From the NCBI RefSeq assembly GCF_037392515.1, contig NC_090290.1, positions 54,944,753 through 55,008,752 of the forward strand: 64,000 nucleotides of DNA, in the 5' to 3' direction. The notes under the pieces are model-generated. The model ran no database searches. It had not been told where the DNA came from and saw only the letters and a program-made list of their open reading frames with translations. Below are positions 11,396 to 36,806 of this stretch, in pieces. The translations under genes were made by a program, and so were the position numbers. How positions within the stretch are numbered: the first letter of the stretch is position 1; every line of letters begins with the position of its first letter. This stretch comes from Haliotis asinina. Taxonomy: Eukaryota; Mollusca; Gastropoda; Lepetellida; Haliotidae.

Positions 11396-11437
11396 CTGAA
11401 TTTGTAGCAGACGTCATTTTCCTCAGCACTGTCAACA

Positions 11438-12418
11438 ATGTCTGCTGAAGATAAAAGAAGGTTGATTTTTGAGTTGTGTAATCAAGGAATTGATGATGTA
11501 AATACATTGGCAGAGAGAACAGGAACTCCTCTTTCTACTGTGTATAGGATTAGGAAGAATTTTAAAGAGGGAAAGGATTTTGGGCACCAGAAAGGAGCAG
11601 GGAGACCCAGAAATTTGGACTTCTCAGATCGCGTCCGGCTGGGAGTTTTAGCGTCTAAAAATCAAAGGGCAAGCATCTCCAACATCAGGTATGGAATGAT
11701 AGAAAGGGGATCAACAGTTGTATCAAAATCTACAGTTAGAAGAAATTTGATTGATCTTGGAGGGGAGAAAAAGACTGGAATTCCTTCTCCTCTCATGAAA
11801 CAAGAACATAAAGACAGGCGTGTTGAGTGGTGTTTGGCACATGAAAACTTTGACTGGGAAAATGTGATTTTTACTGATGAAAGCTCAATATGGGTATATC
11901 CCAATAATGTGAAAATATGGACAAGGTCTGCGTCAGCACCGTTGTATCGACGACCTAAATACAGCCCAAAGTTTCATGTATGGGGAGGGACATCCTTATT
12001 AGGAACGACCCCGCTGTGTGTGTTTGAGGGGAATCTGACAAGTCAACGCTACACTAACATATTAGATAATTTTCTTCTTCCAAGTGCACATGTGTTTTAT
12101 GGAAATGACTGGATTTTGCAGCAAGATAATGATCTTAAACACACCGCAAAACATGCCAAGCAGTGGTTTCAGGAGGAAAATGTGACTGCATTACCATTTC
12201 CTGCATATAGTCCTGACTTAAATCCCATTGAGAACATTTGGGGGATGATGAAGGAATGTGTGAATCAAAAGGGGTTGACAAAAATTGAAGACATGAAGAG
12301 AGATGTGATCCGATACTGGGACAGCATAACTCACGAGACACTAACCTCTCTGATAGGAAGTATGCCTACCCGTCTTAGACTGTGCCGTGAAGCTCAAGGA
12401 GACTTGATAAAATATTAA
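11438..12418 (+). CDS. Tc1-like DD34E transposase
   Basis: This 326-residue protein would cut and paste its own element in the nucleus. The N-terminal part (about 1-110) has the paired helix-turn-helix DNA-binding layout, with a GRPR linker motif at 55-58 that usually contacts the AT-rich minor groove. The catalytic triad is visible: D147 in FTDES, D230 in QQD, and E265 in SPDLNPIENIW, with 34 residues between the second D and the E. Length and motif order match full Tc1-like transposases, and I see no stop or frameshift. The ATG at 11438 (ATGTCTGCTGAAGAT) is the natural start, inside the terminal repeats. An intact ORF with good terminal repeats suggests recent activity, but mobility cannot be shown from one copy. 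Confidence 0.95.
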   Translation: MSAEDKRRLIFELCNQGIDDVNTLAERTGTPLSTVYRIRKNFKEGKDFGHQKGAGRPRNLDFSDRVRLGVLASKNQRASISNIRYGMIERGSTVVSKSTVRRNLIDLGGEKKTGIPSPLMKQEHKDRRVEWCLAHENFDWENVIFTDESSIWVYPNNVKIWTRSASAPLYRRPKYSPKFHVWGGTSLLGTTPLCVFEGNLTSQRYTNILDNFLLPSAHVFYGNDWILQQDNDLKHTAKHAKQWFQEENVTALPFPAYSPDLNPIENIWGMMKECVNQKGLTKIEDMKRDVIRYWDSITHETLTSLIGSMPTRLRLCREAQGDLIKY

Positions 12419-28887: not shown

Positions 28888-31800
28888 TCGGCATTTAATG
28901 CGGGGGGATATAGTCGATGCTTCGTCTGTCTTTCTATTCGTCTGTCATCATTTTGTTTCTGAAGCATAACTCAAAAACAATTCAATATTTTTAGACCAAA
29001 ATTGGTAGACATAATAAACTGAACTTATTGTTGTGCCCTTTGCTATTTACAGATTTGTGGCATTTTTATTTTTACTCCCCTGGCATGTAATGCCGGGAAT
29101 ATAGTTGACGCCTCATCTGCCCTTCTTCAGTCGGTCCGTCCGTACTCATTTTGTTTCCGGAACATAACTCAGAAAACGCTCTGTATTTTTAGACCAAACT
29201 TGATAGATATAATACTCTCAACCTATAGTTGTGTCTTTTGCTATTTACAGCGTTTTGGCATTTTTGTTTCTTGTTTTTCCATGGAACATTGGTGGGGTGG
29301 GCTTCGTTTCTGGAGCAGAATTAAAAAACTGTTCAATATTTTTCTGCAAAACTTAGTAGATATATCAATGAGAACCTGAAGTGGTGCCTTTTGCTATGTA
29401 CAGGTTTTTCTGATCGATTTTTTTCTCGGTTTCTATGGAAACGTTTCAGATATAGTCTCAAAAGTGAGAGGTGTGTTTCGTTTCCGGAGCACATCTCAAA
29501 AACTTTGTAATATCTGTCAGCAAAAGTTGTTAGATATGTGTGGCAGATCCCAAAGTGGTGCCTTTTGCTATGTACAGGTTTTTGTGATTTATTATTTTCA
29601 CGGTTTTGAAAGGAAACGTTTTGGACTTAGTCCCAAAATGGAGGGATGGGCTTCGTTTCCTGAGCAGAACTCAAAAAACATTCAATATTTTTCTGCAAAA
29701 CGTGTTACATACATCAGTCAGAACCTACAGTAGTGCCTTTTGGTACTTACAGGTTTTTTGTGATATATTATTAAGTGAGAGGTGTGTTTCTTTTCTGGAG
29801 CACATCTAAAAAAGTTACTATTTTGTCTGTCAGCAACATTTGGTAGATATATGTGGCTGACCCCAACATGGTGCCTTTTGCTATTTACAGATATTTGTGA
29901 TTTATAATTTTCTGGGTTTCCATTAAAATGTTTTGTACTTAGTCTTAAATTGGAGGGATGGGCTGCGTTTCCGGAGCAGAACTCAAAAACTTCCAAATAT
30001 CTTACTGCAAAACTTGGCAGATATGTAGAGGAGACCCTAAAGTGGTGCCTTTTGCTATTTACAGCATTTTGTGATTTATCATTTTCCCAGTTTCAATGGA
30101 AACGATTCTGACTTAGTCTCAAAATGGAGGGATGGGCTTTGTTTCCAGAGCACAACTCGAAAATTATTCAATATCTTACCAGTCTAAGTAAACTTATCCT
30201 CAGTACTTTTCGTTACACTCCACCACTGAGTCTAACAAAACCTTATGGGAGGTTGTGTCAGGTAACCTTTGAGATTGACCAATCAGAACACAGCTTACCA
30301 AATCGCGAAAGTGCTAATTCGCACATCCCTTATGAACTTTTTGTACCCGAACTATTCAGAATGCTATTTAGCGTACGATCGCTTCCGGATGATGCACACG
30401 GCGTACGTGCTGCCATGACAACGGTGAGTAAACAGTCTCTGAAAATAGTGTTTTGACAATATTCAAGGATGTTAATTTGCGGAAATATTAGCTAATGGTA
30501 ACAAAGTCAACAGAAACCCCAAAGCCTATATACTGCAGGCCAATTAACTGTGTTATATGCAGATTTTTGTTTGTAGAGAGATCTGTGTCGGTGACCTGAA
30601 TATTTTGAAAGGCCCTCCGATCCCTAAATAGTAGCCGTTGTCTGATTGGTTAAATCTATTTAACCGTCTTGCATTTGATTGGACCGTTGTTGGTTGCTCA
30701 AAGGTTACCTGACGCGACCTTCTACTAGGTTTGTTAGACTCAGTGGTGGAGTGTAACGAAATACACTGAGACGAAGTTTACTTAGACTGATATCTTACAG
30801 CAAAACCTGGCAGATATTTGAGACAGACCACAAAGTGGTGCCTTTTGCTATTTACAATGTTTTGGTATTTATATTTTTCCTGGTTTCCATGGAAACAATT
30901 CTGACTTAGTCTCAAAATGGAGATATAGGCTTCGTTTCCAGAGCACAACTGGAAAACCATTTCATATCTTTCAACAGATCTTGGCACATATATGAGACAG
31001 ATCTTAAAGTGGTGCCTTTTGCTGTTTACAGATATATGGCATTTATATTTTTCATGACTTCCATGGAAACGATTCAAACGTAATCTAAGAAAACATCAAG
31101 CAACTGTTAGATGATTTGTCCTTCCTAATATGTTGGGGCCAGGGGGATATGTCATCTTCTGATGACTCTTGTTTTGTTTTTCCATGGAATGTTTTGGTCT
31201 TAGTTTAATGGGAGGGGTGGGCTTCATTTCTGGCCATAACTCAAAAACCATTGAATATTTTTCTGCTAAACTTTGTAGGTATATCACATTATCAGTGAGA
31301 ACCTTAAGTGGTGCCTTTTGCTGTCTACAGGTTTTTGTGGTTTATTATTTTTGGGGTTTCCATGGACTTAGTCTCAAAAGTGCGAGGTGTGTTTCGTTTC
31401 TGGAGCACAACTCAAAACTTCTTAATATATGTCAGCAAAAGTTGGTAGATATGTGTGGCAGACCCCAAAGTAGTGACTTTTGCTATGTACAGTTTTTTGT
31501 AATTCATCATTTTCTGGGTTTACATGGAAACTATTCAGACTTTGTCTCAAAATGGAGGGATGGGCATCGTTTCCGGAGCAAAACTCGAAAACTTCTTAAT
31601 ATCTTTCATCAAAACTTGACAGATGTGTGAGGTAGACCCTAAAGTGGTGCCTTTTACTATTAACTGATTTTAATGATTTATCATTTTCTTGCTTCCCATG
31701 AAAACGATTCGTACTGAGTTTTGAAAGGGAGGGAAGGGCCTCGTTTCCAGAGCACAACTTGAAAACTACTTGATATGGTGGGGTGGGCTTCATTTCCAGA

Positions 31801-32190
31801 GCAGAACTAAAATATATTCAGTATTTTTCTGGTAGATATATCAGTCTGAACCTAAGGCGGTGGCTTTTGCTATTTACAGGTTTTTATGATGTATTAGTTT
31901 GTCGGTTTCCATGGAAATGTTTCGGGCTTAGTCTCAAAATGGAGGGATGGGCTTCATTTCCGGAGCACAACTTGAAAAACCATTTCATATCTTTCAACAG
32001 ATCTTGGCAGATATATGAGACAGATCTTGAAGTGGTGCTTTTTGCTGTTTACAGATACCTGGCTTTTATATTTTTCATTATTTCTATGGAATAAATTCAA
32101 ACTTCGTCTTAAAAAACATCAAGTAACTGTCAGATGATTGTCCTTTTGAATATGTTGGGGCTATGTTGTCTTCTTGTTTTTCATGGTTTC
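28888..32190 (+). mobile_element. Composite array of ~165-bp monomers with head and tail modules (copies 2 and 3)
   Basis: Two heads (palindromic ggcatttaatgcgggg at about 28888; cctggcatgtaatgccggga at about 29077, each followed by ggatatagtcgacgc-like sequence) lead into about 12-14 monomers. Each monomer has a catggaaacgtttcg start, a ggagggatgggcttcgtttc block, and a gtggtgccttttgctattta end. Monomer marks fall near 29383, 29557, 29731, 29869, 30041, 30833, 31007, 31305, 31470, 31642, 31856 and 32030, a spacing of about 140-215 bp and most often about 165-175. Tails with the GTCATC-TTCT-GATGAC hairpin occur at 31151-31166, and a degraded tail near 32105-32180. ORFs here are frame accidents of the repeat. 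Confidence 0.75.
30180..30789. mobile_element. 610-bp Mutator-like MITE inserted in a monomer
   Basis: Terminal inverted repeats of about 95 bp (left cagtctaagtaaacttat; then ttcgttacactccaccactg and gtcaggtaacctttgag; right end the inverse, ending aagtttacttagactg). An exact 9-bp direct repeat ATATCTTAC flanks it (30171-30179 and 30790-30798). Removing the insert restores a normal monomer. Long terminal repeats with a 9-bp target duplication fit Mutator-like elements; no transposase is encoded. Confidence 0.85.
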
Positions 32191-33029: not shown

Positions 33030-33540
33030 ACTGGGCAACTGTCCACATCGGTGGGGCACGGGGAGTAAGCTGGCTAAAGCGCCAGGCTAGTGATCCAGTG
33101 AGGTTGAGGTGTCCGCATCGACCCCCATTGTGACCTGCTGTTAAAACCATGGGTCAAGTTTGTATGCAGATTATTTCCGTGTTGTCACAACCCCTAGTGT
33201 ACAGTACACAACCCTGTGCACTTAAAAAATACCACAAATCTGTTAGTATATGACCAGATGGTGGCCACATGAATATGTGCAAACACTTAGTTGTGGGTAC
33301 AGCAACGTGCAGTAAACTTGGACAAAGTACTGCGACAGTGTCCTAGTCCACCCAGCTGTGAATGGGTACCTCGATAAGATACAGCTGCAAATTGCGTCTA
33401 GAGGCTGCAAGAGTTACATACTCCCCAGGGAGTTGAGACCGAGACCAGGGCTGTTGATATTGACCAGTGATCAAGGGAAATATATGAGCAAACACTAATT
33501 GCCTGGATATGTGCGTGATGTAAATATCCTGTAACATATA
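33030..33540 (+). mobile_element. SINE-like repeat abutting the truncated ORF
   Basis: A tRNA-like start (gtaagctggctaaagcgcca then gttgaggtgtccgcatcga) is followed by a body containing cctagtccacccagctgtga and atgggtacctcgataagata, a block common in mollusc tRNA-derived SINEs. Its right limit is not sharp; the coding frame of the next ORF becomes open only from 33542. Confidence 0.45.
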
Positions 33541-33541
33541 T

Positions 33542-34974
33542 GAATTCACGCTGACACCAAGAGCATTCTTTTCTCTGGATGGCATGTTGTTGCAATGTAC
33601 AACAAGTCAAAACTCATCAGTTGCCTTGAGGAAATGGGAAAAAGCCATACGATCAGTGATCCAGAAACAGCCCCTCAACTTACCCAAATTGACTCTACAG
33701 TGCTTATGATTGCTGTAGTTGATGGTATGGTTCTTCTTCAGAAGATGACACAGTTACCTTCAGCAGTGGAGACGGTAAGGGATTTAAGCTGGTGCTTCAA
33801 TAACCGACTGATGAGCCTTACAAGAAAATTTGACGAAGTTTTTCTTGTGTTTGATACCTATAGACCTGATTCACTTAAATGGGCAACAAGAGAAAAGAGA
33901 TGTCATGGCAAGGATCCAGTCCAGTACCAAATAACTGATGGAACAAGAATCAAGCACATCACATTCAAACGATTCTTATCTCATGACCAAACTAAGAATG
34001 ATCTTGCAGAGTACCTTGCAACAAAGACCATTGAGTACAACAAGGATTCATCAAAGGTCTTCATCACTGCAGCATCGGGTAACACAAGAAGTAACCGCAG
34101 CATCAACTTTGAGTCAAACAACCATGAAGAGGCTGACACACTCATGATCTACCAAGCCATGTGTTCATCTCAGCGAAACCCATGTGACTCCGAACTTGTT
34201 TTCTTCTCTCCTGATACTGACGTCCTCGTGCTAATCATAGCAAATTATGATCACCTGCCAGTAAAGACATCTGTCTGCATGGCATCAGGTGAAGTACAAA
34301 TAGAGCCTATATGGAAATCACTTGGGGCTGAAAAAGCCAAGGCTCTACCAGCCTTCCATGCTTTTTCTGGAGCTGATAATACAGGTAGATTTTCTCGCGT
34401 TGGGAAGACAACTTGGTTCAAGACATTTGTAACAGCCACCAGAGACACCTTTGAAGCTTTACAGCAGCTATCTTGTAGGGAAGATCTTGCTGAGGAAACA
34501 TTTTCAACATTAGCTAGATTTGTATGTGCTGTGTATTGTCCAAAATCAATCACCCTGAATGAAATTCCTGAACTCAGGTGGTACCTCTTTTGCAAACACA
34601 TGGCTGAAAGTGATAGGCTCCCTCCAACAACTGGTGCCTTGAGACAGCACATTCACAGGGTTCAGATGCAGGCATGGGTATGGGCTCAAGCTCATGTTAC
34701 CAAACAAGTCTTCTTGGACCCAGTGAGATATGGGTATTACAGGGATAAGGATGTTCAGCTTAGACCAGTCACCACAGATGTTCTTCCAGCTCCACAGGCT
34801 ATTCTTGAGATGGTTCGATGCCAGTGCAAGACAGACTGTTCAACTCAGCGGTGTACATGCAAATCAAAGGACTTACTATGTACTGAACTTTGTCAGTGCA
34901 GTAATCAGTGTGAGAATGAAGAGTCTCAAGTTGAGGAAACAATTCCTGATGATAACTTTGATGAACTGTTGTAA
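33542..34974 (+). CDS. PIN/FEN-like protein with C-terminal CXC zinc motif, intronless, 5'-truncated
   Basis: The ATG at 33595 opens 459 residues, but the same frame is open back to 33542 and reads protein-like (HADTKSILFSGWHVVA before the Met), so the true N-terminus is probably lost upstream. Numbering from the Met, acidic positions follow the FEN/XPG plan: D43 (VVDGM), D87 (VFDTYR), E178-E179-D181 (HEEADT), D207 and D209 (SPDTDVLVLI), and D261 in FSGADNTGRFSRVGKTT, which resembles the GsDY..GvpGiG turn of FEN nucleases. Residues 325-405 (ELRWYLF, LPPTTGALRQHI, LPAPQAILEMV) are a block I associate with multi-copy invertebrate proteins of unknown role. Residues 409-439 hold nine cysteines in CxC-x3-C-x4-CxC-x6-C-x3-CxC-x3-C order, a tesmin/TSO1-like CXC motif that normally binds zinc and DNA. 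A nuclease role is inferred from layout only. Lack of introns and a SINE at its 5' edge suggest a mobile or retrocopied origin. Confidence 0.75.
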
Positions 34975-36806
34975 ATATGTATTATGATGAGTGTTCCTGA
35001 ATGATCTCTCATTTGGGGACATTGTGGATACTAGTATATAATTACATGATTAATGACAACTTTTCGATTGGAGATATGATGACATGTCTGAAATGGAAAT
35101 CATGATGACATTGATGACTAGCTGTAAACAGTGTTGTGTATTTGGTGCTGACACTGTCTACAACATCTGAGGATAGACATTAACCTATCAATACTGTGAC
35201 ACTGTGGACATTCATGTTCTGATCTTCAACCTGTTGCGACGATTGCACAACTGATCAAGTTAGTAATTTAATTGGTTATCATAACATTCATAATATTCTT
35301 GTTTAAGTATATATACACGTATATACAAGTATCTGTGAGTTCAGTGCATAGATATATATCATAAATAGTTGATATGAAATATATAATGTTCAAATGTTGT
35401 ATATAATAACACATTTCCACTTCATGTATACACAGTAATAGTAGCCTTGATACTTGGTTGTATACAAGTAACCATTAACAGCATACAAATTTCAAATATA
35501 TAGTGAAAATAGATGCACAATAGCAGTTAAAAGTGAAAAAAAGGTGGCACATTGCTGAATTTGGCAGCCATTTTGAAATCCAAGATGGCCGCCAATGGGA
35601 TTGTGTGAAAATTTGGAAACATTGATTTTCACATTAAGTGTAGTGAGTGGTTTATGAATATGCATAATTTTGCTAATCTCCATTTTTTTTGAACGATGGA
35701 CTTATAGCACATTGGCAGAATTTCTTCACTCTGTCGTTTTTTGAAAAAATCCCTGGTATTCCTTTTCTGGTTGTAATAAGTATTCCAGCAGTGTAGTTTA
35801 TTTCCTTTTCTAATGCCTCGATGGTATTGTGATTGATCCAATTTGATCCTATTTCTGTTTTTACCTCGACATTTATCCATATGATGTCTACAGACACATA
35901 GCAAGCCATTTGTTTTGTGAATGTCCGATAGATTGCAAAGCTTTATATTTTTATAGCACTGAGGTTTTGCCCTCTTTCATAGCACAAATCTTATGATTTT
36001 TGGTAGCTGTGTACCTATTACCTCTGATACCAAAAACACTCATTTGATATATTTGAATCCATGAAAATTAATAACGACGACTTTGCCTTTGGTAGAAAAA
36101 TCTGAAAAATTTCTGAGTTTAAACATGATTTATCCATGCAAATTTTGGTGGCAGATGTGCTATCTTGGGTAAGCAATGAGAAAAACATGAAACAGTGTAT
36201 CGCTTTTTGCATATTAGGCTATTGAAGGACACATGACATAGAGCAGGATTATTTACCAGCTGCAGGTGAATGGCATTTTGTGGATATTGATTGATGCATT
36301 CCTGAACAAGGTAATAGCCTGACGTTGTTTCAGTTACTTTAGTCACTTTTTAACTTGATGTTTTCATTTTATTTCATTTGTTTTCATAATGATGAAGTAA
36401 AATGACTTCATCTTTGTTAATTAGTCTATATATACTTAAACTGTCAATTGTGTATATAGATGGCGCAGCAGAGGTCATGAACCTGTCATAAATTCTAGGA
36501 TATCATCCGGGTACTCATTGGAGAAAAACAATAATGAAAGGAACAACCAGTCCACAGAAATTGCTCTGCTCTAATGCCCCTTGAAGATCACTTCAGGCCA
36601 AGGTTACTTTATGGTTCACCTGGTTCACACTGACTATAAAAAGCCAGAAATTTCGACGGTAAACCTTGAAAAGTGTTTAATTGCCAGTGTTGTGCCATAA
36701 ACACCCTAAAAAGGCCCAACATTTGTCACGCATGATTTTACAGGAAACAAAACTGTATACAGTCTTTGTCCAACGCAGAAAACCTGAATTTAGAAACTTC
36801 CGCCTT
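34975..36806. other. 3' flank of the PIN/CXC ORF; no other gene supported
   Basis: Tandem ATATAC-rich sequence lies at about 35300-35400. At 35561-35595 a block agccattttgaaatcc then aagatggccgcc contains a YY1-type AAGATGGCCGCC sequence and may belong to the 3' end of the same element as the ORF. The - strand frames at 35629-36346 are open in pieces but match nothing that I recognise. Confidence 0.4.

Follow-up and report, generated by a model that had tools for sequence, protein, structure and literature searches.

A FEN-like nuclease reading frame in Haliotis asinina is a fragment of a DNA transposon, probably of the Academ kind

A stretch of 64,000 nucleotides from the abalone Haliotis asinina (the window) contains a large open reading frame (ORF) whose product combines motifs of a FEN-like nuclease with a cysteine-rich tail. 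By the window's ORF listing, the stop-to-stop frame extends over 476 codons (33544-34974), with its first Met at 33595. Does this frame specify a self-standing protein belonging to an undescribed system, as an earlier note on this DNA proposed, or is it part of something larger? The acidic motif series in FEN/XPG order and the nine CXC cysteines described in that note are indeed present in the frame: VVDG starts at 33715, FDTYR at 33850, HEEAD at 34123, SPDTD at 34207, FSGAD at 34363 and GKTT at 34402, and the cysteines extend from 34819 to 34909. However, the frame corresponds only to residues 1166-1622, i.e. the last 28%, of a protein of about 1,620 residues encoded by another copy in the same genome (L033). 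Thus, a large and seemingly free-standing nuclease ORF is exposed as a piece of a transposon. We consider it likely, with a probability of about 0.82, that the window holds what remains of a cut-and-paste DNA transposon from the Academ group (AcademX lineage), a copy now dead and without its 5' part.

A multi-copy family with common ends

A tblastn search of the host genome (1.14 Gb, 159 contigs) with the window protein gives at least 93 matches; the closest are 95-96% identical to this protein along almost its entire length, and the most distant reach 25%. These are matched stretches rather than copies, several of which belong to a single copy, and the count is a lower bound. In 13 of the 93, the matched stretch is free of stops and sits in an open frame of more than 1,000 codons. 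Among viral contigs, eight pattern matches yielded no relative of the window protein.

Sixteen 10-kb stretches around tblastn matches were taken for comparison. Copies L032-L038 have common ends, with homology spanning the whole element; the right end is the same throughout the family of the window copy, and the longer copies also share the left end. Three copies are near-complete (L033, 6,839 bp; L034, 6,790 bp; L036, 6,785 bp), and three more (L032, L035 and L037) have both ends and lack internal parts. All six of these start with TAGTCCATTG and end with CAATGGACTA (the same ten end bases). Alignment of L033, L034, L035 and L036 reveals imperfect inverted repeats of about 110-120 bp, starting with TAGTCC. 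Exact 3-bp target duplications (att, caa, cat, tat and aat) flank five of the six copies with both ends; the flanks of L036 are unequal, differing in one base (caa/cac). Inverted repeats together with 3-bp duplications mark a DNA transposon of the cut-and-paste type. The multi-copy mobile family suspected in the earlier note is therefore real, and the copy search with comparison of flanks that it had suggested is what delivers the common ends and duplications.

The family extends to eight more distant loci. At seven of them, inverted repeats spanning 77-119 columns enclose the frame; the repeat of L043 is weak (61%, E 0.017), and a search around the frame of L039 found none. L040 begins with TAGTCC and has a tta duplication (by eye), making it the sole distant locus with an evident 3-bp duplication; at the other six loci with inverted repeats none is evident at the printed arm ends, the exact ends there being unfixed. 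A related element is present as two copies, L041 and L042, whose outer flanks are identical over ten bases on either side; they therefore look like products of a larger segmental duplication rather than of separate insertions. Separately, fourteen places match the left end of the element over its first 83 bp and no further (83-95% identity), thirteen of them on one contig (C4) and one on another (C34). Four of the minus-strand matches on C4, for example, lie at 44808605, 45141643, 45476952 and 45810521; their spacing of 333.0, 335.3 and 333.6 kb hints at a very large repeated unit.

The truncated copy in the window

In the window, homology to the 6,839-bp copy L033 extends from 33539 to 35696 by blastn. 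Beyond this point some 15 bases are lost before the right repeat tip, TGGACT(T)A, which, judged by eye, reaches ~35704. The 3' part of the Academ-like transposon, from L033 position 4634 to the end, accordingly occupies 33539-35704 of the forward strand (95.2% identity over 2190 columns). It includes the right terminal inverted repeat with its small deletion near the tip (35607-35704, forward strand; bounds drawn by eye from the L033 repeat alignment). The 5' two thirds of the element are gone. The left breakpoint is the 3' end of a high-copy SINE-like repeat (33053-33539, forward strand), which agrees with the earlier view of a copy that had lost its 5' part next to a SINE; the label "SINE-like" comes from inspection by eye and from that note. 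The repeat occurs at 39 other places among 40 scored, these 40 being drawn from 5,697 first-look candidates, and most of the scored places end at window 33480-33539. Elsewhere in the window, the left end of the element had no match with up to 3 mismatches, and blastn gave no further match to other element parts within the 64 kb.

The coding remnant is itself broken. Positions 33539-33601 (forward strand) encode L033 residues 1145-1165 in a frame other than that of the transposase-nuclease remnant at 33601-34974 (forward strand), from which a 1-bp deletion near 33600 separates them. This in-frame remnant comprises L033 residues 1166-1622 and the stop codon (tblastn, 95.4% over 457 aa). Because of this deletion, the open stretch ahead of the first Met does not belong to the original frame, a point on which the earlier note needs correction; nor is the product a self-standing two-domain protein, being instead the C-terminal part of one transposase-nuclease protein. 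Since the window copy has neither the DDE core nor the left repeat, it would be unable to transpose, and it is taken as dead.

Could the remnant nevertheless have been domesticated, so that the host uses only this C-terminal part as a gene for a FEN-CXC nuclease? The window copy does retain an open frame of 457 codons together with the invariant residues. In addition, the changes private to this copy within the ORF comprise 6 synonymous and 7 nonsynonymous changes and no stop, when gapped codons, and codons at which the other copies show no clear majority, are left out and with the first 17 codons of the window frame out of register. Without constraint, about 10 of these 13 changes would be reckoned to be nonsynonymous, so that a slight synonymous lean may be present. 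However, private changes occur at similar densities in the frame (13 of 1,428 bases, ~0.9%) and in untranslated sequence (8 of 716, ~1.1%). Furthermore, the sequence belongs to a multi-copy element with inverted repeats and duplications, is truncated 5' at another repeat, and bears a 1-bp deletion. Since the anatomy is that of a transposon and private changes accrue at nearly equal rates in both parts, the idea of a host gene was rejected as highly improbable. Against six other copies, the window ORF shows 96.5-97.9% identity.

The window also contains other elements. An open Tc1/mariner-like transposase frame of 336 codons lies at 11408-12418 (Pfam DDE_3, E 8e-16); a frame sharing its first and last 30 residues adjoins one of the Academ copies (L035:8864-9871). 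Diverged repeats, 72-93% identical and mostly direct, are located at 29288-32161, upstream of the SINE-like repeat.

The FEN-like domain and the CXC tail

The FEN/PIN-like nuclease core, defined by invariant columns and by comparison with an archaeal FEN1 profile, lies at 33715-34413 of the forward strand and includes D60, D104, K112, R119, EEAD198, D224/D226, D278 and GK287-288. Invariance was judged across eight sequences from the host genome, namely that of the window and seven others at 25-92% identity to it, two of which, L041 and L042, are near-duplicates. Residues D60, D104, K112, R119, A197-D198, D224, D226, D278 and G287-K288 are the same in all eight, which argues that the motifs are not due to chance; both glutamates of HEEAD vary, with SD in L045 and L046. 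In FEN1, K93 and R100 are seven residues apart and D181 and D233 are 52 apart, and the same distances separate K112 from R119 and D226 from D278. The domain thus resembles the FEN1/XPG (Rad2) nucleases in the order of its acidic motifs, in the LK...R pair after the second aspartate, and in the GxD...G(I/V)GK block. It differs in that identity in the HMM alignments is 14-17% and that, in the window family, the domain is fused to a transposase and a CXC tail. The FEN1 exons of the host itself (in L048) show EAEA, DMD and GCD...GIGPK blocks.

Profile comparison was used to evaluate this likeness. The domain profile started from 34 Academ domain hits. A minimum length of 220 residues reduced these to 28, and removal of near-duplicates to 20 (hhalign kept 10); in this set, the window's own locus was replaced by the window sequence. 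The archaeal FEN1 profile contained 70 proteins, 10 of 80 loci having been dropped for want of a frame longer than 250 aa with the motifs. The local HMM-HMM score was 32.6, compared with 25.7 for the best of 59 column shuffles and 18.7 for the reversed profile, and the alignment falls in the GxD...GIGK block in the expected register. In global mode, using hand-trimmed parts that both end near this same block, the score was 26.9, compared with at most 12.7 for 59 shuffles and 1.6 for the reversed profile. In either mode, then, the score lies above all 59 shuffles. The probabilities given by hhalign were 11% (local, full), 2.8% (local, trimmed; score 23.9, unshuffled) and 42% (global). The global alignment pairs VVDG, VFD, LK...R, DTD and GAD with their FEN1 counterparts and EEA with GEA; D198 is paired with no FEN1 residue and hence does not face the second FEN1 glutamate. 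The Pfam XPG models did not match the window protein or the members of its family, and PDB sequence searches returned 3 and 2 hits, all with E >0.1, none of them a nuclease of the FEN/XPG kind. The structure prediction called for in the earlier note was run, although the single-sequence AlphaFold2 model (mean pLDDT 34.4) provided no usable fold. Nonetheless, motif order and profile-profile comparison bear out the assignment of a FEN/XPG-like domain, and at the level of sequence its relation to FEN is well supported.

A variant that overlaps with our preferred explanation is that the FEN-like domain acts as a non-catalytic, DNA-binding module within an ordinary transposase. The loss of the EEAD glutamates in L045 and L046 would be consistent with such a role. 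However, D60, D104, K112, R119, D198, D224, D226 and D278 are invariant in all eight members, down to 25% identity, as would be expected of residues that serve catalysis, and we regard the non-catalytic variant as unlikely.

The CXC motif occupies 34819-34911 of the forward strand, as delimited by conserved columns together with a weak Pfam TCR match. Seven of its nine cysteines (428, 432, 439, 446, 450, 452 and 456) are invariant in the eight sequences; cysteines 426 and 437 are not. The consensus of the Tesmin/TSO1-like CXC (TCR) motif comprises nine cysteines in a set spacing, and tesmin-type proteins carry two repeats. The window family has its nine cysteines in nearly the same spacing, but in one copy rather than two. 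The tail and its cysteines stand as the earlier note had them; the Pfam TCR match of the window ORF is weak and reaches 11.9 bits, under the cut-off of 23.5. The model matches five of the eight members, with a best E of 0.28.

The full-length protein and its superfamily

In L033, a single frame of 1,622 codons fills most of the element. N-terminal Cys/His motifs are followed by a DDE-like core, the FEN/PIN-like domain (VVDG at 1204, VFDTYRP at 1248, HEEAD at 1340, SPDTD at 1368 and FSGAD at 1420) and the CXC motif (from 1571). This block order is observed; catalysis and folds are putative. The L033 protein was compared with five relatives from the same genome, L042-L046, in which L042 consists of two frames set end to end. 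Conserved in this comparison are the N-terminal Cys/His motifs and aspartates in the settings DNxD (526 on) and FDxxLY-like (696 on), and a DxxxE motif is present from 951 on. The first D and the E are kept in all six proteins, and the second D in all five that hold that stretch, L042 being without it; hence this residue is seen in five of six sequences. In L043-L046, as measured by script, the D-D spacing is 157-173 residues and the D-E spacing 203-269 residues. The core may be read from these residues as a D, D, E triad.

A mechanism can be proposed for such a protein. The DDE core would cleave at the element ends and insert them, staggered by 3 bases, into target DNA; flaps or branched ends arising from excision or gap repair may be removed by the FEN-like domain, and the zinc motifs could bind the inverted repeats or the target DNA. 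To our knowledge, what a FEN-like domain does inside a transposase is untested; the host genome, with its diverse relatives, some of them long-framed, offers material on this role.

The element shares with Academ/AcademX transposons its inverted repeats, its large size and a nuclease encoded together with the transposase. The superfamily and its AcademX lineage are reportedly due to Kapitonov and Jurka in 2010 and Kojima in 2020, and the AcademX nuclease is of the XPG type. Among the papers available, a search for Academ together with XPG found none. In L033, transposase and nuclease are held by the one 1,622-codon frame, and the FEN/XPG character of the latter comes from motifs and profile comparison. 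According to one report, AcademX elements encode a nuclease and have 3- or 4-bp duplications, compared with the 3 bp here, AcademH elements have 9- or 10-bp duplications, and duplication length is tied to the encoded nuclease and helicase (PMC10045372). A bivalve survey lists 100 curated Academ elements averaging 5,565 bp in length, checked for inverted repeats and duplications, and finds Academ seemingly confined to bivalves among the molluscs surveyed (PMC10294476). The element thus appears to fit Academ by duplication length, nuclease and element size, a likeness drawn from described features. The window copy differs in being a fragment.

The Kolobok transposons have TTAA as their target duplication. 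KolobokE, D and P are also DDD/E transposons with an added nuclease, but the nucleases are of other types (PMC9587614). As a rival to the Academ assignment, the family could constitute a separate, undescribed DDE superfamily that acquired its FEN nuclease by fusion independently of Academ. The Pfam search of the 1,622-aa L033 protein matched no transposase or XPG family, and the relative L044 touches only DUF6589, below the cut-off; moreover, the comparison with Academ was made by description, not with a reference sequence. However, duplication length, encoded nuclease and element size all fit Academ/AcademX as printed (PMC10045372, PMC10294476), and a separate origin seems improbable to us. 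Equally improbable is that the element represents a DDE lineage separate from the Academ groups in print, its fused FEN nuclease freeing it from host flap or gap repair; if this were so, one protein would do the cutting, the joining and the clean-up. The undescribed system of the earlier note is not supported and probably does not exist at this locus, given the fit to the described Academ superfamily; most likely the window holds a broken, previously undescribed member of a known transposon kind.

The match of L044 to Pfam DUF6589 is weak (E 1.5e-5, 24.3 bits, below the cut-off of 27). The host genome contains 16 matches to DUF6589 itself. Among them, L050-L052 belong to a separate DUF6589 family with DNVN, GDQL, FHLQM and DMLMEH motifs. 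By eye, these motifs and their D and E settings look similar to the Academ core, so that DUF6589 could represent a related lineage of DDE transposases.
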